DNA of 64,000 nucleotides from Lunularia cruciata (Eukaryota > Streptophyta > Marchantiopsida > Lunulariales > Lunulariaceae). Location of the stretch: positions 49,308,291 through 49,372,290 of the forward strand of contig OX419755.1 of NCBI GenBank assembly GCA_948567375.1, given 5' to 3'. The position numbers and the translations under genes are program-made. Of the stretch, positions 19,784 through 57,029 are shown in pieces; within the stretch, counting starts at the first letter, position 1; the number at the start of each line of letters is the position of its first letter. The notes beneath the pieces were generated by a model. That model was not told the origin of the DNA. It worked only from the letters and a program-made list of their open reading frames with translations, and did no database searches.

Positions 19784-21300
19784 CATCAAAGAAGTGAAAT
19801 CAAGGGGAAATTGGATGCAAGAACTTTGAGTGTTTGTGGTATCTCTAAGCTTGGTGGATTGTTGGTAGCTCAATTGAAGTTTAGTTTTTCCCTGGTGTGC
19901 AGAAGCTCATTGCTTGATGGAGATTTAGCAGTAAGGTAGACGGTGTGCGGAAGCATTGGCCAATTTTTGAGCATAGAAGGAGCAAATTTCAAGCAGTGGT
20001 TGTGATTTTGAGCTCAGGAGGTGAAGGCAGGACCAATTTGTTTTGAGTTGGGCTCAAAAAGTAAAATTGAAGGTGGAGTTGTGAAGCTATTCTCATGAAT
20101 TTGTGATTTGGGGAAACTCGTGTTTTCAATTTGGCTTGAGTGAAGAGTTAGAGGAGGATTTGACGGTCAGCCAACTTTAGGGTTTTTGTCAAATTTTACG
20201 TCAGATTTTGGCTGAATTTTATGTCAGATTTTGGCTAAATTTGGAGGAGTTCCGTTGGTTGGCCACATTTGGAGGAGTTTTGCCAAGTTGGAGTACTTTT
20301 GCAAGTTTGGAGAAGTTTTGCCAAATTTTGGAGAAGGTTCAAAGTGGCAAGAAGAAAGGCCTCATTTGGCCTCATTTGTCATTTAGAGGCTTTGTGGCAT
20401 AGGGCTGTGGGCTATGAGAGGCTACAAAGGCTGAATTTTAGCATTTAGAGGCTTCGTGGCATAGGGCTGTGGGCTATGAAGGCCTAGAAGGGCCAACAAG
20501 CTAGTTTGTTGGCATGAAGCTAGCTAGTTTAGAGGAGATCTTGGTCATTGGTTTGCAAAATCTACCCATCCTGCTAGATTGTGCACAACAAGTTTTGACC
20601 CCTAGATCTCTTGTTCCTAGACTAGTGCCCCAACCAACTGGTCCACCCTCACTTGTTATCTTGGTGACTGTGCTATTGTTATCTATACACTTGTAGCTTT
20701 GGCTAGGAGAGGCAGTTTGATCCCATTCTTGGTGGTCTTGGTAGCTTAGGACTTAGATACAAATTTCTCTTATGTCAAATGCCAAATGGTTATAGAGTCA
20801 ATCCCGTGTTGTTTTATGAGATGGAGTGTTTTCATTTAGATTTCTTGTGATTGGACCTCCTCCATTTTTTGCTTCTTGTTTGTGCACCACGTTTGTGTGA
20901 GGTGCCTTGACTTTTGAGCGTTGGTGCTCTAGTGTGCTCTCAGTAGTGAGGTTGGAGTGATGACCAGTCAGACTACCTTTGTTTCTCCCCGGTGAGGCAA
21001 TAAGTGATGATCTACATACCATGAGAGTGCATGTTGTGATGGTAGATTATAGGGTGCCCTTTCCTCTAGTGTAGTTATCTCGGTTAGAATTACATTAGTG
21101 TGTGGTGCTTAGTTGGTATTGGCACTTGGTGGTGTTGGCACTTGGTGGGGTTCTTGCGGTTGCAATTTGGGGTTCCAATTTGCTGTTGTAGTTTGCGGTT
21201 GTGTTTACTTTGTCACGACAGAGTTCTTTGGGGATTCCAGAGGAGATAGCCCTGTAATACATAATGGTTTACTCAGAGTGGTACTTGGTATCAGCTTTTA
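19784..21300 (+). other. Element A untranslated leader and candidate primer-binding site
   Basis: About 1.5 kb without coding sense. It is shared with element B (47371-48600), which argues that it belongs to the element. It holds short internal repeats: TTTTGGCTGAATTTT-type units at 20194-20340, and a duplicated segment around GGCATAGGGCTGTGGGCTATG at 20384-20440 and 20447-20490. Near its end, TTGGTATCAGC (about 21288) resembles the initiator-Met primer-binding site TGGTATCAGAGC; B has a more decayed version. The distance of almost 2 kb from the terminus to this site is unusual. Confidence 0.6.
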
Positions 21301-21309
21301 TCTTAGGTC

Positions 21310-22239
21310 CCAATGAGGGAGGAGACTGACTTTGAGTTGGAGTTTGATACAAGAGTTGATTCAATTGAGAGTGCACTTGGTGTGCCCGCACTGTTGTTGT
21401 AGGACATAGATGAGATTTATGGGGCCTCCAAAGGCCCTAAGCATTACTCTGGTACAGTGGATACCATTGAGTTGGATGACTTCATCCAAGAGTTCAATAG
21501 TTGATGTGATCTGTAGTAGATGAAAAACCCGACTTTGTTTACACCCTTCATGGCATAGAAGAGGTTGTTTCAGCATTTGGAGGGTCCACCAATGGATGAC
21601 TACCATGAGTTTAGGAGAGCTCATTTGGAGGAGATCAAGTTATGAGATAATATTGGTCTCCAAACTATGTCTCTATCACTTCAGGTTTGGTGGCCAAGAG
21701 TAGATTTGCTGTACCTACGAGTTCTAGCTCGAGTAGTGTTAGTGGAGCTAGTGGAGGTGCACTAGTTGGAGATAGTGCTACTACAAGTGGAGGTATCGCT
21801 GTAGGAGGTGGTATGGTACTAGGGTTAGACCACATGGTGGATTTCTTCCAATGTATGAGGCAAAACTACCAAGGAGTACAGACTGACAAGCTGAGGAGCT
21901 TGTAGGATTTCCAGGGGAAGGCTAAAGAGAGCCTACGCAAGGCATACACTTGTATGAGGTGGCTGATCAGTTTCACTCAAGGAGTTAGTGAGGCCCATGC
22001 AGTCCAGTTTTCATATGGGATATTAGACAGGGAGTTGCGACATAGAGTTTGTGATGCTACATTGTTCCAGACTACTTTGCCTACTTTAAAAGTGGTCTTT
22101 GGTTTGGCTGAGCGTATTGAGCTCAACATGGTGGAGGAGAGAGTGGTGACATCTGGATTTGGTAGGGAGACCTCATCCACGGCCGTGACTTCTTCTAGAG
22201 TGCAGGAGAGTGCACCATGCCTAGTTGGTTTTCAAGGAT
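21310..22239 (+). pseudogene. Element A gag, first half
   Basis: Broken frames encode a Gag-like segment, for example QHLEGPPMDDYHEFRRAHLE (about 21571-21630) and FSYGILDRELRHRVCDATLF followed by FGLAERIELNMVEERV in a frame open from about 21954 to 22244. The serine- and glycine-rich stretch at 21700-21800 is a linker. Element B has the same segments at 48850-49480. The gene is cut at 22239 by element D and resumes at 30044. Confidence 0.75.
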
Positions 22240-22918
22240 TGTGAGCCGGCCTGTCTCTCACTCAGGATGAACCTCTGATGGCTATTATGGTAGCGCACCA
22301 TGGACTAAGAAGGCAAGGAACCCCAACTCCATCATACTCCTCCAAGGCTAACACTCCAAGACTCAAGACCTTGCTCACTAGAGAACTCAATGAGAGAGAG
22401 ATAGTTGCAAATGAAAGGATGTTGAGTACCTCCTCACTCCTTGTTTATATACTTGTGAAATAGTTACGTACCAAAGTTACTAATTACCGTAGTAACTCAA
22501 GTTACTAGACTAAAAGTCAAGTAAAGTCAAAAAGTAGAAAGGAATATCCATTCACATGGGCATATTCCCCTTATCTTGACCCAACCACTAAAGCAAGGAT
22601 TCCTTCACATGGGCTATCCTTGGACTAAAGAAGAATCCAAAACAAAAAGGCTTGCGGGCCCAAGAGTTCTCAACTCTTTCCCCAAAGCCAAACACCTAGG
22701 AATAATACCAAGTCAACACACTAAAATCCAAAATAGTGGTGCTCATCTTTTCTACTTCCTCTAAAGTAAGGTCCCATCTATCTTAGCTATGACTAACTTT
22801 AGCTAACCATGACTAATATAGAACCATCCTTTATCTCTATATAAATAATATCTCTTAAGTACTTGTAATACCAAGCTAAATATCACAATACCACACACAT
22901 GCACAAATGGGTGTTACA
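22240..22918 (-). repeat. Element D 3' LTR
   Basis: On the plus strand it reads TGTGAGCCGGCC to GGGTGTTACA; the element runs the other way. It is 679 bp, the same length as the 5' LTR, with no mismatch found by eye. The short open frames inside it recur in all three LTR copies and are not genes. Confidence 0.95.
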
Positions 22919-22931
22919 TTTACCCCCGGAC
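22919..22931 (-). other. Element D polypurine tract
   Basis: The minus strand reads GTCCGGGGGTAAA directly before the 3' LTR, the place where plus-strand DNA synthesis is primed. Confidence 0.8.
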
Positions 22932-22966
22932 TAAGTTTTCACTTTGTCCTCAAAGTGAAGGTCTCT

Positions 22967-25900
22967 CTACCTTCTATGGTACATCTTCAACTTATCATGG
23001 TTAATCCTATCAAAGTGTCTTCCTCCCAACTCCTTGAGATCATAAGTGTAATTTCCCCACACCTTCTCTACTATGAAAGGTCCAAAGTACTTAGGCAAAA
23101 ACTTCTTTTGTACTCTCTTGAATCGAATGGAATCAAACAACATTACCCAATCACCTTCTTTGAAAGGCTCCACCTTCTTCTTGCCTTGCCTCTTGTCATA
23201 GCTCTCCTTTTGTTTCCTTTGGGCTTCCTCCACTCGAACCATAGCAACTGCTCTTGCCTCTTCCAACTCCATGAGTTGATCCTTCCTTGACTTCTCTGCA
23301 TCACTTCCTTGTGCTTTCTTCAATCTCCTATGAATGCTTTGGAAGGTAGGAAGATCAAAGTGAATAGGTAAGGTAGACTCAATACCATACACCAATTGGA
23401 ATGGAGAATATCCAGTGGAAGTCTTCATGGTTGTCCTATACTCCCACAAAACTGCATGAATCCTCTTGTCCCAATGATGTTTAGCCCCCTCCATTTCTGC
23501 ATCTTTGGCCAACATCATGCACAAGGTCTGATTGGTTCTCTCTGCCAAGCCATTGGAATTTGGCTTATAGGATGTAGTTACTCTATGTGTGATAGAGAAA
23601 TGTCGTAGCATGGCTGTAGTAATGCTTCCTGTAAACTCTCCTCCTCTATCAGAAACCAACTCCAAAGGGCATCCAAACCTAGTGATAATGCGTTCATAAA
23701 GAAATCTACCCACTTCATCTTCATTCTTGTCCCTCAATGGTCTAGCCTCAACCCACTTGGTAAGGTAATCAGTAACTACCACAATGTACCGATTGTTCCT
23801 TGGGGTTCTATTGAGAGGTCCTACAAAATCAATTCCCCACTTCTCAAAGGGTCCTAGCAATGGAATTGATCTAAGTGGTGGAGTGGATGTAGACTTTCTA
23901 GCAAAAGCTTGACAAACATGACAAGTTTTGCAATAATCAAGACAATCCTTGAAAATCCCTCTCCAATGGTAACCTGCATCTAGAATCTTGAAAGCAGTCA
24001 CCTTTCCTGCAAAGTGTCCTCCACATACTAAACCTTCATGAAACTCCTTTATGAGTAGGATAGACTCTTCCTTACCCACTGCTCTTCGAAGTAGACCATC
24101 TGCTCCTTGGTGAAAAAGAATATCCTCCACCATTGTGTAAGGTCTAGATCTTGCTGCAAGGGCCTTCCTCTCCCTAGCATGCATCCCTTCTGGATAGTTA
24201 CCTCTTGTCACAAAATCCACAATCTCCTTGTACTCCATTGGAATCTCTTGAGTGACTGAGATTGTCATGAGCTCCTCATCCGGGAAGGAATCATCTACTG
24301 GCTCATCTCCATCATGATCATAGGCTCTAGATAACAAATCAGCATTTGCATGTTTCTTTCCTGGCCTATCCTCAATTGTGTAGTCATACTCAGACAAGAG
24401 TATCATCCACCTTGCTAGTCTCCCTTCAACATTAGGCTTGTTGAAGATGTACTTCAAAGCCTTGTGATCCGTGACAATTGTGGCTTTCCCTCCAATCAAG
24501 TAGTGTCTAAACTTCTTGAGACCAAAGATCACTGCCAACCCTTCTCTCTCTGTGACAGAGTAGTTCTTCTCTGCTGAAACCATCTGCCTACTAGCATAAG
24601 CTATTGGATGATCATGCCCATCTTGGTCTAATTGACTAAGAGTGCATCCTATAGCTACATTAGAAGCATCAGTGTAGAGGATGAAAGGCTTACTCCAATC
24701 AGGTTTAGCAAGAATTGGAGCTACAACAAGGGATTGCTTGAGCTCCTCAAAAGCTTTGAGAGCCTCCTTGTCTTCCAAAATCACCATGTAATCTACACCC
24801 TTCTTCATGTAGATGGTCAATGCATAAGCCTTGTTGGAAAATGAGAAGATGAACCTCCTATAGTACCCAACCATTCCCAAGAATTGGCGTAACTTTGTCA
24901 AGCTTGAAGGGAATGGAAGGTCTGAGATTTTCCTCACCTTCTCAGGATCAACTGCTATTCCATCCTTGGAGATGATGTGCCCCAAAAGTAGACCTTCTTC
25001 ACATCCAAAAATGCACTTCTCTGGGTTGAGTGATGCATTTGCCTCATCCAAGCGTTGCAAGACTTTGATTAGGTGCTCAAAGTGCTCCTCCTTGCTCCCA
25101 TAGACACAAAAGTCATCAATGAAATCTCTCACAAATTTCCCAATGAAAGGTTCAAATACCTTGTTCATGAACCGTTGGAATGTGGCTGGAGCATTGCAAA
25201 GCCCAAAAGGCATGACCTTGAAAGCGTAAGTTCCCCAAGGTGTGGTGAATGTGGTGAGTTGTTGATGCTCTGGTGCAATCTTGATTTGGTTATATCCACT
25301 ATAACCATCTCCAAAACTGTACCTCTCATGACCTGCAACCTCCTCCAAGATCTCATCAATGAATGGCAATGGGTAGTAGTCCTTCTTTGTAACAGCATTG
25401 AGCTTCTTGTTATCCACACATACCCGAAGCTTGCCATTCTTTTTCTTCACAATGACAATTGGAGACACCCATTCTGAATTCTCCACCTCAAAGATAAATC
25501 CAGCCTCCTTGAGCTTATCAATCTCCTCCTTCACAACCAAAGATATTGGTGGGCTAATGCGACGTTGCTTTTGGCGGATTGGTCTTGCATGTGACTCCAC
25601 CTCTATCTTGTGCTCCTCCAAGGTGACTTCCTTCAAATCCTTGTAACTAAAAGCAAACACATGGATGAACTTGCGGAAAATCTCCTCAAATCTCACCTTC
25701 TCCTCCTTGGTAACATTTGGGCCATACTTGAGGGTAGATAACCTTCTCTCTACCTCCTCAAGTGTCAATGGTGATTTATCTGGGTCCTTCAAAACCTCTG
25801 GCTTAGGTGCAAAATCCATAGCACATAAAGGATACACATCTGAATCAGATTCAGATTCATCCTCCTCCGTGGAAGTCTCCTCTTCCATGCTTGTGTCCAC

Positions 25901-27793
25901 ACCTGAAGCTCCTCCTTCAGAATCTGATTCCCAATAATCAGAAGATGGGGTATCTGAATGTGAAGTGTTGGTGGTGTTAGTCACAGGAACAGTGACTCTA
26001 TGGTTTGATGGCCCAATCCTTAAGTACCCTTTGTGCCATCGATCAGTTGTGCGTGCTGCTCTCAACCATGGCCTCCCAAGAAGTAAGTCATAGCTTGAAT
26101 CCTTCAAGACTTGGAAAGTCATGAGATTTTGGACTCCCATAACTGAAACTACCACCTTATCCATCACTCCTACTGGTCGAACTTGTTGCTTGTTTGCCAT
26201 GCTCACCACAAATGTTGAAGGTCTTGAGGGTATCATACCCAACTTCTTCATCAACCTTTCTGACATGGCATTCACTGCTGATCCTCCATCAACCAATGCA
26301 TCCTTGATGTTGTGACCATTCACTCTCACATCAATCTTGGAGGCATATTCACAAGCCTCCCATGGTGCTGGCTTGGCATCCACCACCCCCATTGATACTG
26401 GAACTTTTGCCTTCTTCTTCTTCTTGCTCCTTGTAGAACTCAAACCACCTCTAAGCTCCTTTCTCAAGGTAGGGTTCAAAGCAATTAATTGGCCCACTGT
26501 GATGTTAGCCTTGTGACTACCAACATCCTCCAACACATTGTAGTTCCATTGTTGCTTTGAGATCAAGAAGTCCTCCATCCCCAACTTCTTCCTTGGAGTC
26601 TTTGTTGTTGATGGTGTTGAGGTGCGAGTGCTCCTAGTAGACATAGGAGTATCCTTGCTTGAAGTAAATCCTTGAGAAGAGTGAACATCCTCTGCAAAAC
26701 GAGCTCTCTTCTTCTCTTGTGCCAAAAGCTCCAAATTAGGACCCTTGGAGTTTGAGCACTCTCCCTTCTCATACTTGCTCTCAACCACATCTATGGATGC
26801 TATCCCCTTACCTTTGTTGGGATTAGGAGCCACTTGGGTTTCACTACCTCCCTCTTTCCCTCTATTGGCTCCCTCATAACCCCTTCCTCCATGGTAAGTG
26901 GAATTTGGGCAATTCCTTTGGATATGGCCTCTTCCTCCACAACCAAAACAATTTCTATCATTGAAATTGTTGGCTGGTTGGCCTCCTCTATATGGATAGT
27001 TTCCATAACTCCTAGGCCCTCTCCCTACATTCTGATCCACCTCTCTCTTCTCCCATAGTTGCACCACATTGATCTTGAGATCCGCAAGTTGTTCTGTGAT
27101 GGTTTGGAGTGGATCTTTTGGTGGAGGTGCAAGAACTGGAGCAACTACTACTTGTGGTGCAACCCTTGTCACCAAAGTATCAGAAGTTCCACCATACTTG
27201 TAGCCTTGAGGAGGATGCACAACCTCCTTCACCACCAAATCACTCTCATCCCCTTCCAAACTCTCCTCCATACGAATTGCGATCTTGATAGCTTCAACCT
27301 TGGAAGAAGGTTTCTCATATCTCACCTTGCTTCTAATTTGTGGTCTCAATCCTCCCACAAAATTCTTGGTGAGCATGGCCCCTATGCCAATCATTGTAGT
27401 CTCCACATCATCCCCACCCTTCCTCAACACTATGCGAAATCTGGACTCCAACTTTTCCACTCTTTCCACATAGACCCTCACTTTCTCTCCATCTCCTTGC
27501 TTGAGAAATGTAACCTCACTCATCAATCTCTCATAACTCTCATCAGGAAGAAAGTTCTCAATGAGTGCTGAAGTCAAAGTCTCCCAAGACTCCTCTTCCC
27601 CCTCTCTCCTCTCTCTCTTTTGGTATTCTGACTCATACCATGTAAGTGCTGCATCCTCAAAGAAATCTGGTAATAATGAGGCCCACTCATTCTTCCTCCT
27701 CTCATTGTTTCCTATGCAAGCTCTCTTGAAATCTCTCACAAAGGCCTCCACATCTTCTCCATCCTTGCCAAAGAAAACCGGAAGTTTCCCCAT
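22967..27793 (-). CDS. Element D Gag-Pol polyprotein, 1608 residues, intact
   Basis: One uninterrupted frame. I start it at the ATG at 27793 (MGKLPVFF); a GTG three codons earlier directly follows a stop. Gag with a retrotransposon capsid domain spans about residues 15-130. One zinc knuckle, CFGCGGRGHIQRNC, lies near 280. An aspartic protease (ALVDGGSAVNAM) lies near 500. Reverse transcriptase covers about 760-940 with catalytic FGDGYSGYNQI and FIDDF. RNase H (LYTDASNVAIG) lies near 1050. Integrase has an HHCC finger (CKTCHVCQ) near 1270 and a DDE core with GIDFVGP, SDRGGEFTG and NGLAERTN. The C-terminus ends soon after a GPF-type module, with no chromodomain. Together with the tRNA-Asp-like primer site this points to the non-chromodomain (Tat/Athila-like) side of plant gypsy elements, which is an inference. 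Confidence 0.96.
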   Translation of the reverse strand: MGKLPVFFGKDGEDVEAFVRDFKRACIGNNERRKNEWASLLPDFFEDAALTWYESEYQKRERREGEEESWETLTSALIENFLPDESYERLMSEVTFLKQGDGEKVRVYVERVEKLESRFRIVLRKGGDDVETTMIGIGAMLTKNFVGGLRPQIRSKVRYEKPSSKVEAIKIAIRMEESLEGDESDLVVKEVVHPPQGYKYGGTSDTLVTRVAPQVVVAPVLAPPPKDPLQTITEQLADLKINVVQLWEKREVDQNVGRGPRSYGNYPYRGGQPANNFNDRNCFGCGGRGHIQRNCPNSTYHGGRGYEGANRGKEGGSETQVAPNPNKGKGIASIDVVESKYEKGECSNSKGPNLELLAQEKKRARFAEDVHSSQGFTSSKDTPMSTRSTRTSTPSTTKTPRKKLGMEDFLISKQQWNYNVLEDVGSHKANITVGQLIALNPTLRKELRGGLSSTRSKKKKKAKVPVSMGVVDAKPAPWEACEYASKIDVRVNGHNIKDALVDGGSAVNAMSERLMKKLGMIPSRPSTFVVSMANKQQVRPVGVMDKVVVSVMGVQNLMTFQVLKDSSYDLLLGRPWLRAARTTDRWHKGYLRIGPSNHRVTVPVTNTTNTSHSDTPSSDYWESDSEGGASGVDTSMEEETSTEEDESESDSDVYPLCAMDFAPKPEVLKDPDKSPLTLEEVERRLSTLKYGPNVTKEEKVRFEEIFRKFIHVFAFSYKDLKEVTLEEHKIEVESHARPIRQKQRRISPPISLVVKEEIDKLKEAGFIFEVENSEWVSPIVIVKKKNGKLRVCVDNKKLNAVTKKDYYPLPFIDEILEEVAGHERYSFGDGYSGYNQIKIAPEHQQLTTFTTPWGTYAFKVMPFGLCNAPATFQRFMNKVFEPFIGKFVRDFIDDFCVYGSKEEHFEHLIKVLQRLDEANASLNPEKCIFGCEEGLLLGHIISKDGIAVDPEKVRKISDLPFPSSLTKLRQFLGMVGYYRRFIFSFSNKAYALTIYMKKGVDYMVILEDKEALKAFEELKQSLVVAPILAKPDWSKPFILYTDASNVAIGCTLSQLDQDGHDHPIAYASRQMVSAEKNYSVTEREGLAVIFGLKKFRHYLIGGKATIVTDHKALKYIFNKPNVEGRLARWMILLSEYDYTIEDRPGKKHANADLLSRAYDHDGDEPVDDSFPDEELMTISVTQEIPMEYKEIVDFVTRGNYPEGMHARERKALAARSRPYTMVEDILFHQGADGLLRRAVGKEESILLIKEFHEGLVCGGHFAGKVTAFKILDAGYHWRGIFKDCLDYCKTCHVCQAFARKSTSTPPLRSIPLLGPFEKWGIDFVGPLNRTPRNNRYIVVVTDYLTKWVEARPLRDKNEDEVGRFLYERIITRFGCPLELVSDRGGEFTGSITTAMLRHFSITHRVTTSYKPNSNGLAERTNQTLCMMLAKDAEMEGAKHHWDKRIHAVLWEYRTTMKTSTGYSPFQLVYGIESTLPIHFDLPTFQSIHRRLKKAQGSDAEKSRKDQLMELEEARAVAMVRVEEAQRKQKESYDKRQGKKKVEPFKEGDWVMLFDSIRFKRVQKKFLPKYFGPFIVEKVWGNYTYDLKELGGRHFDRINHDKLKMYHRR

Positions 27794-28030
27794 CTTAACC
27801 ACTCACTATCTTTCTTTTCTCTTAATTTTTTTTTTTTCTCTTTTCTTTTCTCTCACTCTATTACTAATAGAGTATATACATGACTAACACCATCTGAGAA
27901 TAATCCACTCTAGGGAACACAAAAGGTTCAGGTTGCTCCAAGATTTCTATAGCAACATCAAATCCTAGAGTGCATATTAATCTAACTCTCATGGATAGTT
28001 TATCCATAAGTTGAAAGATTATCTCCATCA

Positions 28031-28504
28031 CTAATCTTGAGAACTAGCTGATGAAGGTGGTAGTATTTCTGTAGCTGTACTAAGACTCTCTCCAAGATCC
28101 TTCACCAAAGTTTCCAAAAGTGCTTTTACTCCACTACACTCATGTCCTTTTGGAAGTCCTTCAACTCCACAAACCTCACACAACTCCTTGGTCTTAGATC
28201 TTCTCCCTCCCAATCTTGGTGAAGAAGGTCCAACATGCAAACCCAAGTCAAGTAAGCCTCTCCTTTCCCTCAATCTCTTGCTCTCAAAGGTTAATGGACA
28301 TGAACTTGCCTTATGTCCCTTCTCTCCACATAGAAAGCACTTAGACTCACTCTTTCCTCCAAGTGGTGTAGGTTTTTGGATCCTCTCAACACTCTCTTCA
28401 AATTCTATCGTAAACTCTCTTTTCCTCAAATCCACTCCTACAATCACCTCAAACCCTTGGGGAACCTTGCATAATCTCAATTTCCACTCTTGATGACCCT
28501 CCAT
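28031..28504 (-). CDS. Element D small zinc-knuckle ORF upstream of gag
   Basis: A separate 157-residue frame lies between the 5' LTR and gag-pol, in the same orientation, with its stop about 240 bp before the gag-pol ATG. I use the ATG at 28504 (MEGHQEWK); the GTG 8 codons upstream directly follows a stop. It contains a CCHC knuckle, CFLCGEKGHKASSC, near residue 57 and a second Cys/His cluster, CEVCGVEGLPKGHEC, near 107. A nucleic-acid-binding role is likely. Some Tat-lineage elements (Ogre type) are known to have an extra ORF before gag; whether this is homologous cannot be judged here. I do not recognise the rest of the protein. Confidence 0.65.
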   Translation of the reverse strand: MEGHQEWKLRLCKVPQGFEVIVGVDLRKREFTIEFEESVERIQKPTPLGGKSESKCFLCGEKGHKASSCPLTFESKRLRERRGLLDLGLHVGPSSPRLGGRRSKTKELCEVCGVEGLPKGHECSGVKALLETLVKDLGESLSTATEILPPSSASSQD

Positions 28505-29341
28505 GTTCCCAAAGATGAATCTAAACACTCAAACATGCTTTTTGTTGATCTCAAACTTCTCATGCATGAGATCTCCACTCTGCAGAATTGACCCTTCCTC
28601 ACAATGTCACTCAAATCTCCCAACTAATATGTCACAGTCCTCTGAAATTTTCCACACTTGATCACAACTCTAGGGCGTCCCTCCCTGCAAAATTTTAGAT
28701 CTTTTCATCGAGCCATTTGGCCTAGACACCTTTCTATTCAGCACCCATATTTCAGATTTGGTCTGAAAACCACCCCCCTCACTTCAAAAACTCATAACGC
28801 ACTGCGCAAAAATGATCTCTCTCTAATTTTTGTGGCACCAGGTAGGATACAATGCACTGAATTTTCTTGGAAATTTTCAGGACAATTCACTGAAAATTGA
28901 AGAAATGGCAGACTCTGTACAATTTTCCAGAGAGCATGCAGTTGCGGGAGCACTTTACCCTATCAACTTTCAAAAATTCTAGCCCAGTGCGCATAGAAGC
29001 TCTCTCAATAATTTCAAGTGTGCTAACTGAAAGATAACCCAAGCTATCATGTGTAGAAATCTCAAGTCCAGATCTCAAACTTGAGATTTTGCCCAAAATC
29101 ACCTTAATCCCCAAAATCTGCAATCCACCTCACACAATCTCTCCAATTCCTCTCATGTATACAAGATGTACAAAATCACCTCAAAGACATCATAATGAAC
29201 TACAGGGTATACAAATGGATCTTGGTTCTCTAACATAAGTTCAGCCCTCTCCTCTCCTAATGTTCTCTCCAAGTGAGCTCTCATAGCCTCCTTCTGCCTA
29301 ATGTAGAATTGGACGCGGAACATTATCTTGCCTTCTAGAGA

Positions 29342-29360
29342 GGTCCCGGCAACGGAACCA
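29342..29360 (-). other. Element D primer-binding site, tRNA-Asp-like
   Basis: The minus strand reads TGGTTCCGTTGCCGGGACC, four bases after the 5' LTR. The tail GTTGCCGGG agrees with the tRNA-Asp site of plant gypsy elements (TGGCGCCGTTGCCGGGGA), with two differences in the first six bases. Confidence 0.75.
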
Positions 29361-29364
29361 AAAA

Positions 29365-30043
29365 TGTGAGCCGGCCTGTCTCTCACTCAGGATGAACCTC
29401 TGATGGCTATTATGGTAGCGCACCATGGACTAAGAAGGCAAGGAACCCCAACTCCATCATACTCCTCCAAGGCTAACACTCCAAGACTCAAGACCTTGCT
29501 CACTAGAGAACTCAATGAGAGAGAGATAGTTGCAAATGAAAGGATGTTGAGTACCTCCTCACTCCTTGTTTATATACTTGTGAAATAGTTACGTACCAAA
29601 GTTACTAATTACCGTAGTAACTCAAGTTACTAGACTAAAAGTCAAGTAAAGTCAAAAAGTAGAAAGGAATATCCATTCACATGGGCATATTCCCCTTATC
29701 TTGACCCAACCACTAAAGCAAGGATTCCTTCACATGGGCTATCCTTGGACTAAAGAAGAATCCAAAACAAAAAGGCTTGCGGGCCCAAGAGTTCTCAACT
29801 CTTTCCCCAAAGCCAAACACCTAGGAATAATACCAAGTCAACACACTAAAATCCAAAATAGTGGTGCTCATCTTTTCTACTTCCTCTAAAGTAAGGTCCC
29901 ATCTATCTTAGCTATGACTAACTTTAGCTAACCATGACTAATATAGAACCATCCTTTATCTCTATATAAATAATATCTCTTAAGTACTTGTAATACCAAG
30001 CTAAATATCACAATACCACACACATGCACAAATGGGTGTTACA
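29365..30043 (-). repeat. Element D 5' LTR with promoter
   Basis: 679 bp, same length and apparently the same sequence as the 3' LTR. A TATA box, AAGTATATAAAC on the minus strand, lies at 29568-29579, a suitable place for the element's transcription start. Confidence 0.95.
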
Positions 30044-30640
30044 GGACAGGGTGGATAGCCTAGATCCTATGGAGCGAGTGGAGGACCTAGTGGAGTTAGA
30101 CTCTTACCTTCATTTTTGGGTCAACAGCAAAGTGAGTGGTGGTGTTGCTTGTTGGAATTGTGGTGGACCTCACCATTGGAAAGAGTGTACTCAAGGCAAT
30201 GGACCTAATACCTTGGGTGCATCACAACTAGCATAGAGGTAGTGTGAGCATTGCCACAAATTTGGTCACACTAGTGACCAATGTTTTGACCAACACTTGG
30301 AGTTACGGAGTGGTAGGGCTGCTATGGCAGGTAGTAGAGGAGCTCCAACTGATAGAGGACAAGGTAGTAGAGGTGGTGGTAGAGGATCTACACCTAGTAG
30401 GGATGCAATACATGCCTTTACTTCTGATATAGCTATGGCTACTTGGATTGAGTAGTTGGAGCAGAGATTGGCTAGTATGGCCATTACTTCGAGGAGATCA
30501 GATTCAGGTGTTAAGGCTTCCACCTCATATGCTGGTGATAGAGATGTTTTGGACTTCATGTATGGAGCAGCACATGTGGATGCATCTACATTAGTGACTA
30601 GAAGTACGTGCTCTAGAGCCTAATGGAGCATCAGTGGAGT
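30044..30640 (+). pseudogene. Element A gag, second half with two zinc knuckles
   Basis: Resumes the Gag reading after element D. Two CCHC knuckles are visible: CWNCGGPHHWKEC at 30150-30188 and CEHCHKFGHTSDQC at 30243-30284. Both fit C-x2-C-x4-H-x4-C. A shared frame between them is broken by a stop. Element B has the same pair at 49624-49662 and 49717-49758. Tandem knuckles bind the element's RNA in Gag proteins. Confidence 0.85.
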
Positions 30641-30961
30641 TGGACCTACAAAGAGGAGAGGTTGGGAGACAAATCAGACTTCCCCAGTCTTTTACACTAT
30701 CTGAGGCATTGCAGACAACATCCATGGCTCTTAGACATCCCACTACAAGTGTGGTAGGTGGTGATGGAGTGCATGATCAACTACCTGCTAGTCAGCCACC
30801 TACTACTACATAAATTAAGTCTAGCATGATGTTGGGTGTGGCTCAACTGATTATGCGATGTCCTTTGTTTTTGGCCAATGACATATTTACATTGGGAGTT
30901 GACCTAGCCCCAATGTTTTGGTTGGCTGCCATGTTGTGTGAGAGTAGGGATGATGCAGTTC

Positions 30962-31640
30962 TGTAACACCCATTTGTGCATGTGTGTGGTATTGTGATAT
31001 TTAGCTTGGTATTACAAGTACTTAAGAGATATTATTTATATAGAGATAAAGGATGGTTCTATATTAGTCATGGTTAGCTAAAGTTAGTCATAGCTAAGAT
31101 AGATGGGACCTTACTTTAGAGGAAGTAGAAAAGATGAGCACCACTATTTTGGATTTTAGTGTGTTGACTTGGTATTATTCCTAGGTGTTTGGCTTTGGGG
31201 AAAGAGTTGAGAACTCTTGGGCCCGCAAGCCTTTTTGTTTTGGATTCTTCTTTAGTCCAAGGATAGCCCATGTGAAGGAATCCTTGCTTTAGTGGTTGGG
31301 TCAAGATAAGGGGAATATGCCCATGTGAATGGATATTCCTTTCTACTTTTTGACTTTACTTGAATTTTAGTCTAGTAACTTGAGTTACTACGGTAATTAG
31401 TAACTTTGGTACGTAACTATTTCACAAGTATATAAACAAGGAGTGAGGAGGTACTCATCATCCTTTCATTTGCAACTATCTCTCTCTCATTGAGTTCTCT
31501 AGTGAGCAATGTCTTGAGTCTTGGAGTGTTAGCCTTGGAGGAGTATGATGGAGTTGGGGTTCCTTGCCTTCTTAGTCCATGGTGCGCTACCATAATAGCC
31601 ATCAGAGGTTCATCCTGAGTGAGAGACAGGCCGGCTCACA
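30962..31640 (+). mobile_element. Solo LTR of the element D family
   Basis: A 679-bp copy of the D LTR in plus orientation (TGTAACACC to GGCTCACA), inverted relative to element D. It is flanked by AGTTC at 30957-30961 and, overlapping the last A of the LTR, at 31640-31644. Element B is uninterrupted at the same site (50430-50450). I found about three substitutions against the LTRs of D, so it is also young. It arose by recombination between the LTRs of a former full element. Confidence 0.93.
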
Positions 31641-31735
31641 GTTCCTACTACTAGAACAGAGGTGGTTGATAGTGGAGCTGACTTGGTGAGGAGCATGGGA
31701 TCCGTTCAACGACCAATGGTTTATGGTAGGTAGCA

Positions 31736-32110
31736 ATGGCTAGACTAGAGGAGTTGCTAGCTAGACCGGCCTTTGAGAGAGCACGGTTCACACTTGGTGT
31801 TGTCCTATTGGATAACCAGAGGGGGATTTTCTGTTTGGTGGGACCTTTAGGGAAGGTCTATACACCACAGAGAGTCTTGTTAGACTTTGGTGCAGAGCCT
31901 CTTATGTTGGGGAAGGCTACAGTTGTTGGTTTGGAGTTACAGAAGACCAATGTGGAGAGGTGTCCATTTCAGATCCAAACATCTCTAGGTGGTGGTTTGA
32001 CATAGTACATCACACGTGGAGAGCTTGTTGACCAGGTTCAACCTGGTCATCCAGTTGATAGCTTGATGGTGAGAGCTCAGGCTATTGCAACAATAGCTAA
32101 GTCATTATGT
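31736..32110 (+). pseudogene. Element A protease domain
   Basis: An open stretch contains RVLLDFGAEPLMLGKATV, which fits the active-site block of a retroviral-type aspartic protease (D-S/T-G-A followed by a hydrophobic turn), with F in place of S/T. Upstream is FTLGVVLLDNQRGIFCLVGP. Element B has the matching LLDFGAQPLML at about 50670-50700. The frame ends at a stop near 32004 and relics continue to about 32110. Confidence 0.7.
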
Positions 32111-32239
32111 GTGCTAGTTGGGAGAGCAGTGTTATACCCCATGGGTTTCAACATTGACTATTGGGAGGAGACAACCTCCTATAGACCAAGTTGGTAGTCT
32201 GGTGAGGGACGGGTATGTCGCCTACCAATACGCTTTAGT

Positions 32240-32574
32240 AATGGAAGTCTTGGCTCACTTCAGTCCAAGACCATGGCAACATCAGTTTTAGCTTTTAGTA
32301 GTGCAGTTACTTGGCCTGGTGACTTGTTGGAAGGGAACGCCCATGCAGAGGATACTCTAGTACCAAAGGAGATCACTTGGATTTGGAGTACAAGTGGGAT
32401 TGTTCCATCTACCTTGGATGTTCCATTGTGGAGTTCAGAGGAGGCATTGCAGCAACATGTAGATCAGTTGGTGTAGTAGGGTTGGAGTAGAGCCTTTGTA
32501 CCATCAAGAGATGAGTGTGAGGATGAGCCTCCAGAGTTGATTACTTTGATACCTCTAAATACCACACTCATTGC
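32240..32574 (+). pseudogene. Element A segment between protease and methyltransferase
   Basis: A frame open from 32273 to 32476 encodes a segment also preserved in element B at 51064-51255 (SxIxPSTLDVPLWS-EEAL is common to both). I recognise no family. Conservation in both copies means it was part of the polyprotein, probably a linker or an N-terminal extension of the methyltransferase. Confidence 0.55.
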
Positions 32575-33535
32575 TTGGAAATATCCAATAGAGAGGATAT
32601 GCTTATTGGAGTTGTTTGGTGGGATTACCGTACTAGTTGTGGTATTATAGGCAAGTATACAAGTATAGAGGTATTTGTATATAGAGAGAGATGAGATTGC
32701 TAGGCAAGTCTCTCTACATCATGTGGCACACTTGGCCTATTGGTATCCGGAGTTATTACCAATGTCAGCAGTCAAAGGTTACCAAAAGACCCTACCAATA
32801 AACATTTCCTTACTGGGGTGCATAATCTAGAGAGATATAGAACTATTCACTTGGTGATTTCTGGATGGCCATGTAAGGAACATACACGTGCTGGTTGAGG
32901 TTTGAGTCTTCAAGATCCTCATTTTGGTGTGTTTTGGGAGATGTTATAGATACTACAACATCTCCAGATTCATCAGTCCGTTCCTCCAACTTACTTTTTG
33001 GAGCATGTTCCTTTGATGGGTGATTCTTGCTCCAAAGTGATGGTGAGTACACATCGGGTCCATTCTTGGATGGGACCTGCTGTATTGCTAGATGCAACCA
33101 TAGTGGGATCACGGGCTCATAGTCTTCATCTTTGGTGGACTAACCTCTTACCCAAAGGGGTTCTACAACGTGCTTATGATGGGATTCAATGACTTGACCA
33201 CATCCTTGTTGATGATATCTTGGATGTTGGGCGTCAGTCTCAGATAGTGGTAGTGGCTGATAGGTCACCTATGGCAATGGTGAACCTAGTTGGATAGCCT
33301 AGAGCCGCATTTCCCACACTCATGAATTTCCTCGGCTCTCATGCTTTTTGAGAAGGAGGACCTAGACTTGTTTGGGACTCACAATTACAATAGTTGGTGG
33401 AGCCCAACGTTGATGAGAGGAAGTGGGTGATGGGTTTTTGCACCGGTATTACCGTTGTTCCAACAGTGTTAGAGGCATCCAGGCATTAGGTGTTAGGTTA
33501 GGCTATGGACCTGAATTGTTTGACCTGGATTGAGA
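32575..33535 (+). pseudogene. C5-cytosine DNA methyltransferase domain in element A
   Basis: Broken frames preserve the ordered motifs of a C5-cytosine DNA methyltransferase. Motif I, LLELFGG (cofactor binding), is at 32603-32623. Motif IV, GWPC with the catalytic Cys codon at 32872-32874, is followed by LQDPHFGVFWEM. Motif VI, FLEHV (normally ENV), is at 32995-33009. A motif VIII-like GSRAHSLHLWWTN is at 33106-33144. Motifs IX/X lie at about 33425-33520 (MGF, then LG-AMDLN). Spacing and order are those of the family, roughly 310 residues. The residue after the catalytic Cys is Lys here but Gln in element B, so the ancestor probably had the usual PCQ. The domain lies between protease and reverse transcriptase. 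Several stops make it non-functional in this copy. Confidence 0.85.
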
Positions 33536-33959
33536 GCCTTGGCTTGGTAGAGCAGCATAGGATGCACTTGGACACTTGTGAGCCCTATGCCTATTGAGAT
33601 GATTCAGGCACATGGGGGGGGAGGGGGGGGGGTTATGGACCAAGTGGGCATGGTATTTGTGGGATACAACCTGTAGCTACTAGGGAGAGTGGTCTACTTA
33701 GAGTCCATCCAGGTGGGCATGTGCTACTTGGATTACACCCTTTGTCCACTTGGGATGCAGCTAAAGGACATGTGGAGCTTGCAACCATAGTGGAGGGAGT
33801 TTTTCACATAGAGGTTGGGACCTCTAGTGGTAGGGAGCATGACACTATTGCTCCCAAGGGGGTCAGTGTAGCAGCCAATTAGTACATCTTCCACTTTTAC
33901 TACAATTACAAAGGATACTTGGGAGCCAGATCTTGGACCCAAGCTTACTAGAGAGGAAA
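33536..33959 (+). other. Element A linker with a poly-G tract
   Basis: Shared with element B (52312-52686) but without a recognised domain. At 33614-33632 this copy has a near-pure run of G broken by one A, where B reads ATGTTTGGAGGGATGG. The run therefore looks like local slippage after insertion and could form a G-quadruplex. Confidence 0.5.
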
Positions 33960-35350
33960 GACGGAGGGTTTGGAGGTTCTTAAGGAGCCACATGAGTTGT
34001 TTTACCTTTAGTATGAAGGATTTGGGTGCTCTCAAGGGACCTGGTATATGGATTGAGTTGACTAGCAATACACCAGTTTTCTGACGTCCTTATTGATATA
34101 GTGAGATGGAGAGGACATTGATTTAGAGCCAGAGTAATGACCTTTTTGAGGTTGGTTTGGTGGAGATTTCACATGGAGAGTATGCATCAGCAACAATGAT
34201 GCTAGCCAAGAAGGATATGCATGGCAATTACATAGATAGGCAGATGTGTGGAGATTACCGTCCTATCAACCGACAGACCAGGGCTAATTGGTATGCCATG
34301 CCTACACCAAAGGAGATTTTTGATGCGATTGGGCATGCAAAGGTCTTCAATACTTTGGATCTTTGAGTGTGATACCATCAGTTCCCGATCAAGGAGGAGG
34401 ATAAGTCCAAGATAACATTTTGGGCTATTGATCCTCATGGCAAGGATGTGTTATATCAGTGGAGGTTCTTACCATTTGGGTTAAAGAACGCTCTTGCTGA
34501 GTTCCAAAGGGTCATGGATAGGATCCTAGCTGGATTGGATTTTGCTTGGTGCTATATTGATGACATTTTGATCTATAGCACTATTGTGGAAGAGCATGAG
34601 AGACAATTGTTGGAGGTGTTTGAGAGGTTGAGATCTCATGGATTCAAATTACATCTTGGGAAGCATAGGTTCTTCCCCAAGCAAGTTGAGTATTTGGGTC
34701 ACACTATCTACCCCAGAGGACTTGTGTTCAGTAGACCAAGGTGGAGGCTATTGCACATATTCCTCAGCCTACAAATGTGAGCAGAGTGCGAGCATTCCTT
34801 AGATTGGTGAACTTCTATCACCGTTATGTTAGAGGATTTAGTGTCATTGCCAAGGCCTTGACAAAGCTGACCAAGCTTACACATGAGTGGTGTTGGGGAG
34901 ATGAGTAGGAGAGAGCTTTTGTAGAGCTCAAGGAGAGGTTGACATTTGCTCCTATTTTGAGGAGACCAATCAAAGGACGACCATTTCAGGTTCATATTGA
35001 TTGGAGTATGTTGGGGCTTGGAGCGGTGCTCACCCAGCATGATGATGAGGGGAAGGAGTTTGTGCTGGCCTATGCTAGTCGCTCCAACAATTCAGCAGAG
35101 GTAAAGTATAGTTCATATGAGAGAGAGTGTGTGCTTGGCAACCATTTGGGCAGTAGCACATTTCCGATGTTACCTATTTGGTAACCCCTTCACTCTCATC
35201 ATTGATCATCAACCACTATAGTGGTTGATAGAGTCCGACAAGCTTTCAAGGAAGCTTGCACGATGGGCTCTGACTTTATAAGAGTATGATTTCACGGTTT
35301 TTCATAGACCTAGAGTGGTGAACCATGATACAGATGGGTTGAGTAGAAAC
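33960..35350 (+). pseudogene. Element A reverse transcriptase and RNase H
   Basis: Reverse transcriptase shows CGDYRPINRQTRANWYAMPT (34246-34305), KVFNTLDL, RFLPFGLKNALAEFQR (34461-34508) and the catalytic YIDDILIYS (34553-34579). A stop falls just after LDL. RNase H follows with VHIDWSMLGLGAVL (34990-35030), YASRSNNSAEVKYSSYE (35074-35124) and a frame-shifted C-terminal part ending near HDTDGL (35340). The domain order and motifs are those of Ty3/gypsy elements. Similarity to element B (53056-54480) runs throughout. Confidence 0.9.
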
Positions 35351-35479
35351 CCATGTCCCAACCAGTAGAATCGGATCGGAGCACGTTGGTAAGGTGAGAC
35401 AGATGAGGAGATGGTGCACAGTTGGCATGCATTGGCCTTTCTATGTATATTTTTAGAGGCTTTGGTGGTATCTCTCTCA

Positions 35480-36600
35480 GTGCATATAGGAAGAGTTATT
35501 GAGGTCATAGATCCAAAGAGTGAAGATATTGATACAGTTTAGCAAGACATTCATGATGATGTCTAATTGATAGATTTGCTTCACATTGGTGTTGTGGGTG
35601 GCACAATTGGGGCCAAGAAGAGAGACCATGTTCTTTAGCAAGCTTGACGGTTCAGATTGGAGAGAAGACACCTTTTGTGTGTATAAGAGGATGGTAGTTG
35701 CGAGTAGTACCACTTCTATCTCAAAGACCACAGTTGGTCCATAATGCTCATGAGGAGCTAGGACATTTTGGAGTAAAGCGTACATATAGCTTACTCCAAA
35801 GTCATTATTGGTGACGTGGTATGCAGACCAAGGTACAACAGTTTGTTGCTAGATGTGTGGTTTGTGACCAAGTTAGACCATCATTCAATGCTTCTACGCC
35901 ACAATTACACCCATTACCTATTATGGGATTGGGTTACTATTGGAGTTTGGACTTCATTGGACCTTTATTGCTGATTGTGAGACATCATCGATATGTTTTG
36001 GTGATGGTGGAGCACTTCTCCAAGTGGATTGAGTTGGTGGCACTTCCTGACAAGTCTAGTGAAGGGACAACTTCCTTGTTCTTGGATTGAGTTCTTAGTC
36101 ATTTTGGTGCACTAGCTGAGGTTTTGACTGATCAAGGTATAGAGTTCTTGGGGGAGTTTCATATCTTGTGTGACAAGGCTTTGATTGATCATTGTACTAA
36201 ATCCTGAGATCACCCTAAGGTAGATGGCTTAGTAGAGAGAGTGGTTCAAACGGTGAAGGGAGGATTGCAAAAGTATGGTTTGAAAAGAGGCCACTTGGGA
36301 GATTGGGATCTCTAGTTACCTTGGTTGGCCATGGGCTATCGGTTCAGCTGGCAAGCCTCCTTAGCATCCTTCTCTCCATACTTTCTAGTCTATTGACGAG
36401 ATCCAAATTTACCTGCAGCCATTTGTCGAGATGCTACTATAGTTTTGGACTTAGATGACCCCAATGTATGATGAGCACATGTTCCTAGCGGGCAAAGATC
36501 TTTCGGAGAGTGATGCCGGTGGCCTTTGAGAACTTGGTGATTGCTCAGCATAACGATACTTAAGGCTATGATACCATTCAAGGAGGAGGTTATAGACCCT
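35480..36600 (+). pseudogene. Element A DDE integrase
   Basis: The HHCC finger spans about 35730-35880, ending CVVCDQVRPSF in a frame open from 35821 to 36090. The catalytic core shows SLDFIGPL (first Asp, about 35947), then LTDQGIEFLGEF (second Asp, about 36128) and KVDGLVERVVQTVKGG (Glu, about 36235). This is a transposase-type DDE integrase, not a tyrosine recombinase. Stops and frameshifts are present. Confidence 0.9.
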
Positions 36601-36987
36601 TGATCTGTCGATCTCATCCAGGAGATTATGTATATCTACAGAAGACAACACCAATGACACTTGATGTTTTGATAGGCCGCACTATCTTGAGAGTGCGTGA
36701 GGTTTTGCCATCTAAAGTCCTTGTGTTAAAAGGATGTGATGGTGTTTTTTGGAAGGATAATGTGCGTAATTGTGCACCATACCACCTCCCAAACATTGAT
36801 GGTACTATGGACCCAAGCTTGGCACTTGTACGTGCAAGCTTGAGGTGTATGTTATGTGGCTCTTCTGGTGGAGCTACTACAATGTTAGTGTGTGATAGCT
36901 GTTCGAGAGGATGGCATATGGCATGTATGACTCCTCCCCTCATGATGGTTCCTCAGGTATAGGGGTTATGTCCTAGATGTACTTGAC
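36600..36987 (+). pseudogene. Element A integrase tail with PHD finger
   Basis: A frame open from 36600 to 36962 first gives an integrase C-terminal module (HPGDYVYLQ, TILRVREVLPS) and then a C4HC3 PHD finger. Cys pairs sit at 36846/36855 and 36891/36900, His at 36915, Cys at 36924, and the last pair at 36970/36979, with the usual spacing (CMLCG...MLVCDSCSRGWHMAC...LCPRC). An in-frame TAG at 36961 breaks it before the last pair. PHD fingers read histone H3 tails; in this position it would take the place of the chromodomain of chromoviruses. Element B has the same finger at 56054-56189. Confidence 0.88.
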
Positions 36988-37144
36988 CTATAGCTAGTTC
37001 ATTCTTTATATGGTATAGGTTGCAGACATGCAACTAACGATGGGGCTCCATAGCACCCGGCCTCTTGATCTTTGCCCATCATAGAGTTTACCATATCCTT
37101 GGAGTAGATGGCTATCTGGAGTTAGAGGGACCTAACCACCAACT

Positions 37145-37154
37145 AGAGGGGCAA
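37145..37154 (+). other. Element A polypurine tract candidate
   Basis: AGAGGGGCAA directly precedes repeat X, not repeat Y. Element B has AGGGAGGCAA at the equivalent place (56355-56364). Confidence 0.55.
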
Positions 37155-37262
37155 TTGTGGCACTTTAGAGCTTATGTATGACTTATGTGTGAGTTGTGCT
37201 TCTATAGTGTATGATTTTGGCAGCGATGTATGTTGTGTAACGATGTATATATGCATGATATT
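37154..37262 (+). repeat. Element A repeat X, inner copy
   Basis: About 109 bp, ATTGTGGCACTTTAGAG through TATATATGCATGATAT, lying between the purine tract and the second Y. It matches the terminal X copy at 37712-37805 apart from an 11-bp gap and a few changes. Confidence 0.88.
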
Positions 37263-37711
37263 TGTCACGCCATTTGTAGTGTCGCATCTAGATTGCTCAG
37301 ACACTGGAGTTGCAGTGATAGTGGTTAGAGTTATTTCAGCAGTTTCTCAAAGACTATTTTCTGACGGTCAAATTTCATGTTTGGGGTATTGACTTCACGG
37401 TGGGGCCCACCATCACTTTGCACTGTTTGCACCGTCAAGTGTGCCGTCAGCGGGTCCGTTAGGGTTTCAGACCTAGCTCAAGTCCAAGGGTATACCTTTG
37501 AAGTGTAGCTCCAGAGAGCTCACTTCTATGATGTTGAGACTTCGAGTTCTTGGCTATGGTGGACAGAGGCCGATGAGCATCACCTGGATTCTATTAGCTA
37601 GATTGGGTGTGGCTTGACTGTAATCAGTGCACAACTGTTGGTAGTTTATAGAGTGACAGATCAAGTACTGATCTGAGTTGAGTGGATTCAAGAGTTGTAA
37701 ACAATCTGATT
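37263..37711 (+). repeat. Element A repeat Y, 3' copy
   Basis: About 449 bp, TGTCACGCC to CAATCTGATTA, equivalent to 19334-19783. It differs from the 5' copy by scattered substitutions, so the insertion is old compared with element D. Confidence 0.9.
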
Positions 37712-37805
37712 ATTGTGCACTTTAGAGCCTATGTATGAGTTGTGCTTTTATAGTGTATGATGTTGACAGCGATGTATGTTGTGTAGTGATGTATAAACGC
37801 ACAAC
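37712..37805 (+). repeat. Element A repeat X, terminal copy
   Basis: ATTGTGCACTTTAGAG to GTATAAACGCACAAC, followed at once by the target duplication AGAGT (37806-37810). The terminal CACAAC and the initial GTTGTCAC across the left junction are partly inverted copies of each other. Confidence 0.88.
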
Positions 37806-38040
37806 AGAGTGCAAGTTGAATCTACATGGGAGTCTGATCCTTCCTATAACTCTTGAGGATTACCCTATGGTCTTTGATTAAACTCACCAAAGAGTTAAAA
37901 GAGTTCACATCCATTCTGGTGAGTTGTTTGAAAGCTTTTGGGGTTGAGATTTCTAAAATAATTAGTATTCTGTTACGTAGATAAGTTATTCTCGGCTCCC
38001 AATATCTATGACATTTGTAAAAATTCCCATCACCCAAGTA
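37806..38040 (-). pseudogene. Harbinger-like transposase pseudogene, N-terminal part
   Basis: Minus-strand frame from about 38037 to 37822 contains FKQLTRMDVNSFNSLVSLI (usual form F-R-M-s-x-sF-x-L), typical of the N-terminal helical region of HARBI1-type proteins, and ends at DQTPM. One stop follows, then the sequence reaches the element A junction. Across the junction the reading continues as IQLALSFDRFAD, which fits the next block of this family, in the piece at 18370-19333. Confidence 0.8.
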
Positions 38041-48610: not shown

Positions 48611-48699
48611 TGTATTTGATGTCCTAGTGAGGGAGGAGATTGACTTTAAGTTGGAGTTTGACATAAGAGTTGATTCAGTTGAGAGTGCACTTGGTATGT

Positions 48700-51255: not shown

Positions 51256-51339
51256 TTGGTGCAACAGGCTTGGAGTGGAGCCTTTGTATCACTAGGTGAC
51301 CAATATGCGGATGAGCATCCAAAGTTGATTACCTTGAAC

Positions 51340-53049: not shown

Positions 53050-53055
53050 AGATAC

Positions 53056-57028: not shown

Positions 57029-57029
57029 A

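Follow-up and report, generated by a model that had tools for sequence, protein, structure and literature searches.

Cytosine methylation is a host weapon against transposons, and the usual picture of this arms race is reversed if selection maintains such an enzyme within an element. A 64,000-nucleotide stretch of the Lunularia cruciata genome, hereafter the window, raises the question of whether a Gypsy retrotransposon can carry a cytosine methyltransferase of its own and, if so, where the enzyme came from and what it does for the element. A sequence-only reading of the window had proposed such a domain, with ordered C5-methyltransferase motifs between protease and reverse transcriptase in two copies.

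Two decayed copies of one Gypsy lineage

The window contains two decayed copies of one Ty3/Gypsy lineage, both on the plus strand: element A (19333–37806) and element B (46979–57029). Gag, protease (PR), DNA methyltransferase (DNMT), reverse transcriptase (RT), RNase H (RH), integrase (INT) and PHD finger were placed in both copies by profile matches, and the two share the order repeat A1, gag, protease, DNMT3-type methyltransferase, a UAG-CAR-YYA stop, RT, RNase H, integrase, PHD finger and repeats B1, A2 and B2. The succession that marks Ty3/Gypsy elements, PR, RT and RNase H followed by a DDE integrase, was recovered in both elements with profiles and in their relatives with Pfam.

Starting from the left, element A begins with TTGTCACG at 19333, just downstream of GAGAG, and its 5′ LTR-like repeat A1 (19333–19783) pairs with repeat A2 (37262–37712) at 88.7% identity and without gaps. 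Gag (21436–22239; profile E 6e-25 and 1e-40) is interrupted at 22240 by a nested young Gypsy on the minus strand (22240–30043), and the remainder of gag, a CCHC knuckle, lies at 30105–30200 (weak profile match, E 0.0026). The nested Gypsy is not part of the finding; its LTRs are identical at 679 of 679 positions, and its reading frame of 1,611 amino acids (22970–27802, minus strand) is open, with Pfam matches to gag, protease, RT, RNaseH and rve and none to a methyltransferase. Also outside the finding is a lone LTR from the nested family in inverted orientation (30958–31643, minus strand; 99% complementary to 29362–30047), which splits element A again. Beyond it follow the protease (31814–32173, E 4e-35), the methyltransferase and stop motif discussed below, RT (34181–34711, E 5e-55), RNase H in two frames (34894–35293, E 5e-24 and 5e-19), the DDE integrase (35707–36396, E 6e-86) and a PHD finger (36843–36980, E 9e-15) that also passes Pfam (PF00628, E 9e-8, 32.4 bits against a cut-off of 24). 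Repeat B1 (37154–37255; 80% identical, with gaps, to 37712–37801), A2 and B2 (37712–37806) close the element, which ends in CGCACAACA with GAGTG just downstream.

Element B repeats this plan, with a 5′-truncated A1 (46979–47370; 82% to 56531–56923), gag (48750–49674, E 6e-31 and 3e-35), protease (50609–50965, E 1e-29), RT (53316–53846, E 5e-49), RNase H (54030–54425, E 1e-44), integrase in two frames (54841–55499, E 9e-20 and 5e-38), PHD finger (56052–56189, E 3.5e-13), B1 (56364–56466; 93.2% to 56923–57025), A2 (56467–56923; 79.7% to repeat A1 of element A, 19328–19783) and B2 (56923–57029), again ending in CGCACAACA. A dispersed GAAGCTTC-rich repeat occurs at 10303–10470, 15496–15619 and 52687–52963, the last copy being inserted in element B between DNMT and RT. 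A third, heavily decayed Gypsy at 12746–14698 has left profile traces of RT, RNase H and integrase.

A DNMT3-type domain in both copies

Both window copies of the family (2 of 2) contain the methyltransferase domain. In element A it spans 32594–33543, so that the location first proposed, 32575–33535, was nearly right, and shows motifs I–X in two overlapping matches (32594–32827 in frame 1, E 2.4e-19; 32755–33543 in frame 0, E 1.9e-82). In element B it spans 51391–52319, with profile matches at 51398–51976 (E 2.4e-30) and 51804–52319 (E 1.1e-44) and motif I read directly. Motif I (LLELFGG) lies at 32603–32623 in A and 51391–51411 in B, and motifs I, IV (PC), VI (ENV), VIII and IX–X run linearly in both copies, unpermuted, unlike those of DRM. 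The first 86 proteins to be gathered, including two fish proteins of DNMT3 type, went into the profile; as it contains proteins found with a window piece, these matches are not fully independent evidence. At the thresholds used, it matches nothing else in the six frames of the window.

Both copies are dead. Frameshifts and stops interrupt each of them, with a single frameshift and several stops in the domain of element A. Motif VI of A is EHV, two residues of motif IV are missing in B, and the last arginine of motif VIII has become His in both. Motif IV of element A keeps GWPC, as do the proteins P0002 and P0016 in the liverwort clade of an eight-member alignment, A3. Mismatches between the A and B domains by codon position (61/310, 47/312 and 66/312) indicate near-neutral change, as expected because both copies are dead.

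On single decayed copies, Pfam gives PF00145 11.1 bits in element A (cut-off 22; E 0.26) and no family at E 1 for two pieces of element B, and a PDB search with one decayed copy as query returned nothing relevant. Such scores below the Pfam cut-off are what might be expected of chance motifs or a decayed unrelated protein, a reading that is refuted, leaving it a negligible chance, by the order of all motifs in two copies and by matches at up to E 8e-92 to proteins bearing PF00145. A search with the frame-0 piece of A recovers 13 proteins, with E values from 8e-92 to 2e-28 (11 from Marchantia polymorpha, one from Sphagnum fallax and one other). Relatives above the PF00145 cut-off include P0002 (35.6 bits), P0004 (35.1), P0035 (39.2) and P0049 (23.4); the family is unmatched in P0012, P0013 (E 0.01) and P0083 (E 5). 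The NCBIfam C5-methyltransferase family TIGR00675 matches 8 of 8 members of A3, the member shown scoring 39.9 bits, under the curated cut-off of 100.65.

Alignment A3, which has no window rows, was used as a search profile against the PDB. DNMT3A and DNMT3B came out on top (best 85.8 bits), ahead of 4onj (‘DNA methyltransferase’, 51.5 bits), which we take to be a plant DRM, HaeIII (46.2 bits) and a tRNA C38 methyltransferase of DNMT2 type (44.5 bits). Profile comparison with fish DNMT3B is colinear from motif I to motif X at 99.3% probability. Judged by the PDB ranking, the domain is closer to DNMT3 than to other C5 families. It shares with the host DNMT3 of animals and non-flowering plants an unpermuted catalytic domain and the type of motif VIII, but it is embedded in a retroelement, and Pfam lists no PWWP, ADD or DUF3444 in the seven relatives scanned. 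The original proposal thus holds in its main parts: profile matches place the motifs with PR upstream and RT downstream in both elements, and the PR-RT-RH-INT profiles, the Marchantia matches (best E 8.3e-92) and the DNMT3 ranking all describe a Gypsy element with a captured cytosine methyltransferase.

A probable leaky stop between DNMT and RT

Between DNMT and RT, both elements carry TAG CAG CCA on the plus strand (33869–33877 in A, 52638–52646 in B), each in the frame of the following RT and, in B, also in frame with the end of DNMT. UAG-CAR-YYA is described in a passage of PMC3542737 as the type I readthrough signal of tobamoviruses. A scan of bacterial genomes with the DNMT alignment gave 195 pattern matches, among which the sole such locus is L081 (CADCWO010000201.1, 1–9285), a cyanobacterium-binned contig that is probably eukaryotic contamination of the assembly. 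Here gag, PR and DNMT share one open reading frame that ends in TAG CAA TCA, and RT-RH-INT-PHD continues open in the same frame for 1,047 codons. The ends of L081 overlap by 127 bases, showing that it was assembled as a circle, so its terminal repeats are unreadable.

The motif is therefore present in all three DNA copies seen (A, B and L081), of which L081 is the sole independent second case, A and B being homologous. CARYYA follows 8 of the 2,264 TAG triplets on both strands of the window, the sites in A and B included, and on the plus strand it was observed four times against 2.4 predicted by base composition. From these sequences, the leaky stop is very likely to be used. Our reading is that Gag-PR-DNMT would be the main product and the Pol part a minority readthrough product, which would place DNMT on the Gag side and yields a measurable prediction of how much enzyme enters the particle.

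A family conserved across liverworts, a moss and green algae

Three protein searches, the third listing the best 120 of 309 matches, yielded at least 189 proteins. Among the matches listed, 187 of 189 combine DNMT with at least one retroelement domain, and the other two are fish DNMT3-type host proteins. The named sources in these matches include the liverworts Marchantia polymorpha and Calypogeia fissa, the moss Sphagnum fallax and, among algae, Haematococcus lacustris, Monoraphidium neglectum, Scenedesmus sp. and a model tagged Chrzof1, presumably Chromochloris zofingiensis. Long open reading frames are found in the relatives from liverworts, one moss and green algae. The EukProt entries P0119 and P0147, which we assume to come from transcriptome assemblies, are named as ‘complete’ ORFs; P0084 and P0167, which bear bacterial MAG names, are probably contamination. 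Marchantia polymorpha alone has at least 15 annotated proteins of the DNMT-Gypsy kind, 8 of them named partial, and as it is a standard laboratory plant, what a retrotransposon gains from DNA methylation can be tested directly.

Two domain orders occur. The window type, PR-DNMT-RT-RH-INT(-PHD), is found in liverworts and moss, whereas the named green algae belong to a sister lineage in which DNMT follows RNase H and precedes integrase, RT-RH-DNMT-INT-PHD. For residue counts we kept the 171 of 187 listed matches with a near-complete single DNMT domain, dropping 16. The catalytic Cys is present in 170 of these 171, the Glu-Asn of motif VI and the last Arg of motif VIII in all 171, and the Gly of motif X in 168. 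The residue preceding the catalytic Cys is more variable: Pro in 84 domains, Glu in 75, Ser in 8 and Asp in 4; with Glu for Pro in so many, some may be altered enzymes. When 105 polyproteins with DNMT after RNase H are compared in pairs, identity averages 45% in DNMT, 42% in RT, 53% in RNase H, 50% in integrase and 48% in PHD, as against only 18% and 15% in the two linkers that flank DNMT, in a sample collected partly via DNMT that may flatter the DNMT figure. By this measure DNMT is kept as firmly as the core enzymes RT and integrase. Comparative sequence evidence makes it almost certain that the element is a DNMT3-Gypsy maintained by selection.

The PHD finger, with at least 143 matches in the collected proteins, occupies the place of a chromatin-reader module. 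Chromoviruses carry a chromodomain at the C terminus of the integrase; elements A and B carry a PHD finger there instead. With Pfam, P0013, P0049 and P0083 have a PHD finger and no chromodomain, P0035 has neither, and the PHD-containing reading frame of element A has no chromodomain at E 1.

Further domains accompany some relatives. After the PHD finger, 81 of 189 proteins among the matches listed (P0013, P0070, P0091 and others) have a C-terminal domain with DPxxGxG...ND...SPxF motifs. Its resemblance to D12 adenine methylases is weak (best E 1.5e-4 among five members; 17.4 bits against a cut-off of 22 for the member shown), pointing to a possible second methylase in one retroelement; elements A and B have no match to it. 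A subset of DNMT-after-RNase H elements (P0049 and others) has a G-patch between DNMT and integrase.

A viral origin of the domain was considered and rejected. Of the 600 pattern stretches listed from IMG/VR, at least 94 are relatives and 80 were kept; they mostly cover part of the DNMT domain, their best segments are only 23–44% identical, and none is a close viral source.

Published counterparts and origin of the domain

A DNMT3-bearing Gypsy is known in print from one charophyte, and what is new here is a variant layout and a wider range. KnitGypsy-Dnmt3 of Klebsormidium nitens has Gypsy domains, DNMT3 in its coding region and DIRS-like repeats (PMC5890265). Compared through this published description, it shares with elements A and B the Gypsy backbone, the DNMT3-type methylase and the repeats, but its DNMT lies inside the Pol ORF, whereas that of A, B and L081 lies upstream of the leaky stop together with Gag and protease; a DNMT in Pol would instead fit the sister clade with DNMT after RNase H. 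No protein among the matches listed is named as the K. nitens element. The PHD finger after the integrase and the leaky stop between DNMT and RT are new anatomy, and a term search of the main text of PMC5890265 found no ‘PHD’. SymbioDIRS-Dnmt3 and SymbioLINE-Dnmt of Symbiodinium (PMC5890265) are likewise retrotransposon-borne DNMTs, and the former occurs in two domain orders, as do the DNMT-Gypsy relatives, but they belong to tyrosine-recombinase (DIRS) or LINE elements and not to Gypsy elements with a DDE integrase.

According to a passage of a 2019 article (PMC6338049), land plants lack transposon methylases, an absence on which the article bases an argument about defence against viruses. 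The same passage reports Gypsy and DIRS retrotransposons with adenine or cytosine methylases in green algae and charophytes, without detail of which kind occurs in which group, so that green algal elements of this kind may already have been known. Titles and abstract openings of open-access papers held no other report of a DNMT-Gypsy in land plants or chlorophytes.

The sequence-only reading had pointed to retrotransposon methyltransferases from charophytes and dinoflagellates, correctly in substance (KnitGypsy-Dnmt3 in the former, DIRS and LINE types in the latter; PMC5890265), and had taken the domain to be an ancestral part of the element. The latter view is well supported by conserved residues, by an identity like that of the core enzymes and by trees in which elements A and B group with those of liverworts. 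The DNMT tree comprises two window pieces and 73 of the 86 proteins; A and B pair in it (support 99) within a clade of Marchantia and Calypogeia (100). The RT tree (38 rows) places the window with Marchantia (99) and then P0035 (92), and in the INT tree (45 rows, no Marchantia INT) the window copies join Sphagnum P0012 (96). By identity, P0012 is also nearest to element A (65% over 161 columns), a ranking that decay blurs. The two domain orders come apart in the pol tree (40 rows, elements A and B left out) with support of 99/90 and 100/99.

These trees are compatible with a single capture followed by a move; their host DNMT3s are limited to two fish proteins. We consider it quite possible, with real reservations, that a green-plant-wide Gypsy lineage captured DNMT3 once, before the green algal and land-plant elements split, carried this methylation writer and the PHD reader ever since, and later moved the writer between the Gag side and the Pol side, in either direction. 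Separate captures of related DNMT3 genes (at least two, with one gene entering between PR and RT and another between RH and INT) are rather unlikely. That the two DNMT positions coincide with two pol clades would suit them, and independent captures were found in other element classes by de Mendoza et al. (PMC5890265). However, the retroelement DNMTs all group together against the two fish proteins, the sole host DNMT3s in the tree, and the DNMT and pol trees share the same main split. P0083 bears on both sides: it has DNMT before RT and yet is placed with DNMT-after-RH elements in the INT tree (90) and, at an unsupported placement, in the DNMT tree, as separate captures would allow; in the pol tree it is basal, against them, though on a long branch beside the outgroup, and its grouping with the other DNMT-before-RT rows there has an AU p of 0.36. 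If the single capture is right, the Klebsormidium case is one member of the lineage and not a separate local capture, a move between the Gag side (leaky stop, land-plant type) and the Pol side alters the amount of enzyme made, and the elements are long-lived epigenetic self-markers of green plant genomes.

What the enzyme may do for the element

The explanation that we favour overall, and hold to be somewhat probable, is that a Gag-packed DNMT marks the element's own new DNA. Ribosomes would mostly stop at the leaky UAG, so that DNMT is made in Gag-like amounts as Gag-PR-DNMT and packed into the particle. There it would methylate cytosines of the newly made DNA duplex, either ahead of insertion by the integrase-PHD part or in the course of it, and new copies would arrive pre-marked and host-like. 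Such marks might hide them from the sensing of foreign DNA, or might start them silent and less harmful. This mechanism is a guess based on the position and conservation of the DNMT and on the published yeast activity of SymbioDIRS-Dnmt3 domains, which passages of PMC5890265 describe as de novo CG methylation. The Klebsormidium Gypsy DNMT, the sole Gypsy one tested in print, gave no methylation in yeast according to the same passages, a result that the authors call inconclusive. As a counterpoint, de Mendoza et al. note that retrotransposons lacking a DNMT transpose in the same genomes (PMC5890265). On sequence and analogy, it is conceivable, at somewhat less than an even prospect, that the element's own DNA is the substrate. 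The ADD domain is a PHD-like histone reader in animal DNMT3. By analogy, the PHD finger could steer integration or the methylase through histone reading, although we regard such steering as doubtful.

The target of the enzyme might instead be host chromatin, either where the element inserts or across the whole genome; the PHD finger would then select the site, and the enzyme would serve as a weapon or to stabilise heterochromatin. The same element carries a PHD finger beside its integrase, PHD and DNMT are both well conserved, and animal DNMT3 has PWWP and ADD domains (PMC12344493). In the window lineage, however, DNMT and PHD belong to different ORFs, DNMT to the Gag-side one, so that work in the particle fits better, and we judge a host target to be unlikely. 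More improbable still is a non-DNA task for the domain, such as methylation of genomic RNA or a structural or RNA-binding role. Glu in place of Pro before the catalytic Cys in 75 of the 171 domains would be compatible with such a task, and RNA methylation has been raised for SymbioLINE by de Mendoza et al. (PMC5890265), but motif VIII is of DNMT3 type (AHRxRxxW), the best match is DNMT3, above DNMT2, and GWPC is kept in element A, P0002 and P0016.

The sequence-only reading had suggested that the enzyme could have methylated new cDNA, as a form of self-silencing or host mimicry. A footprint of such self-methylation was sought in base composition and rejected as not specific. CpG content is 0.16–0.23 in the DNMT elements, 0.14 in the nested Gypsy and 0.49–0.83 in three other stretches of the window. 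The nested Gypsy, whose ORF has no methyltransferase match in Pfam, is equally CpG-poor, so the depletion reflects general host methylation and does not prove self-methylation.

Terminal repeats and surroundings

The terminal repeats of the elements are unusual. In both (2 of 2), an A repeat of about 450 bases opens the element and the 3′ end consists of B1 (about 100 bases), A2 and B2; repeats A1 and A2 are LTR-like, yet repeat comparisons find no B repeat after A1 in either element. Homology between A and B stops near the end of B2, at 37810 and 57033. The flanks of element A, GAGAG and GAGTG, form an imperfect 5-base target-site duplication (4 of 5), readable for A only because the left end of B is truncated. 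By eye, no usual primer-binding site or polypurine tract was recognised in either element. A1 and A2 have diverged by 0.125 (K2P) in element A and by 0.213 in element B, indicating that both insertions are old; for B1 and B2 the values are 0.206 in A and 0.071 in B.

The arrangement A-coding-B-A-B is that of DIRS elements and is common to A and B; de Mendoza et al. report it for KnitGypsy-Dnmt3 and still assign that element to Gypsy (PMC5890265). The tyrosine recombinase that characterises DIRS is not what accompanies it: both elements have integrase profile matches, and in P0013, P0035, P0049 and P0083 the Pfam matches include rve but no tyrosine recombinase. In split-repeat elements, the internal B1-A2 junction has reportedly been proposed as a template that restores the ends. 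By analogy it may do so here too, combined with a DDE integrase. DIRS elements with a Dam-like adenine methylase presumably also join split repeats to a retroelement methylase, as here. Such elements are cited in passages of PMC5890265 and PMC6338049.

Elsewhere the window holds no tRNA and no Rfam match, and 18 of the 20 ORFs scanned have no Pfam match. The DUF1442 family is typical of plants, and a host-like fragment of such a gene, which points to a land plant, lies at 60432–61160 (Pfam E 4e-23), in surroundings of nearly normal CpG content.
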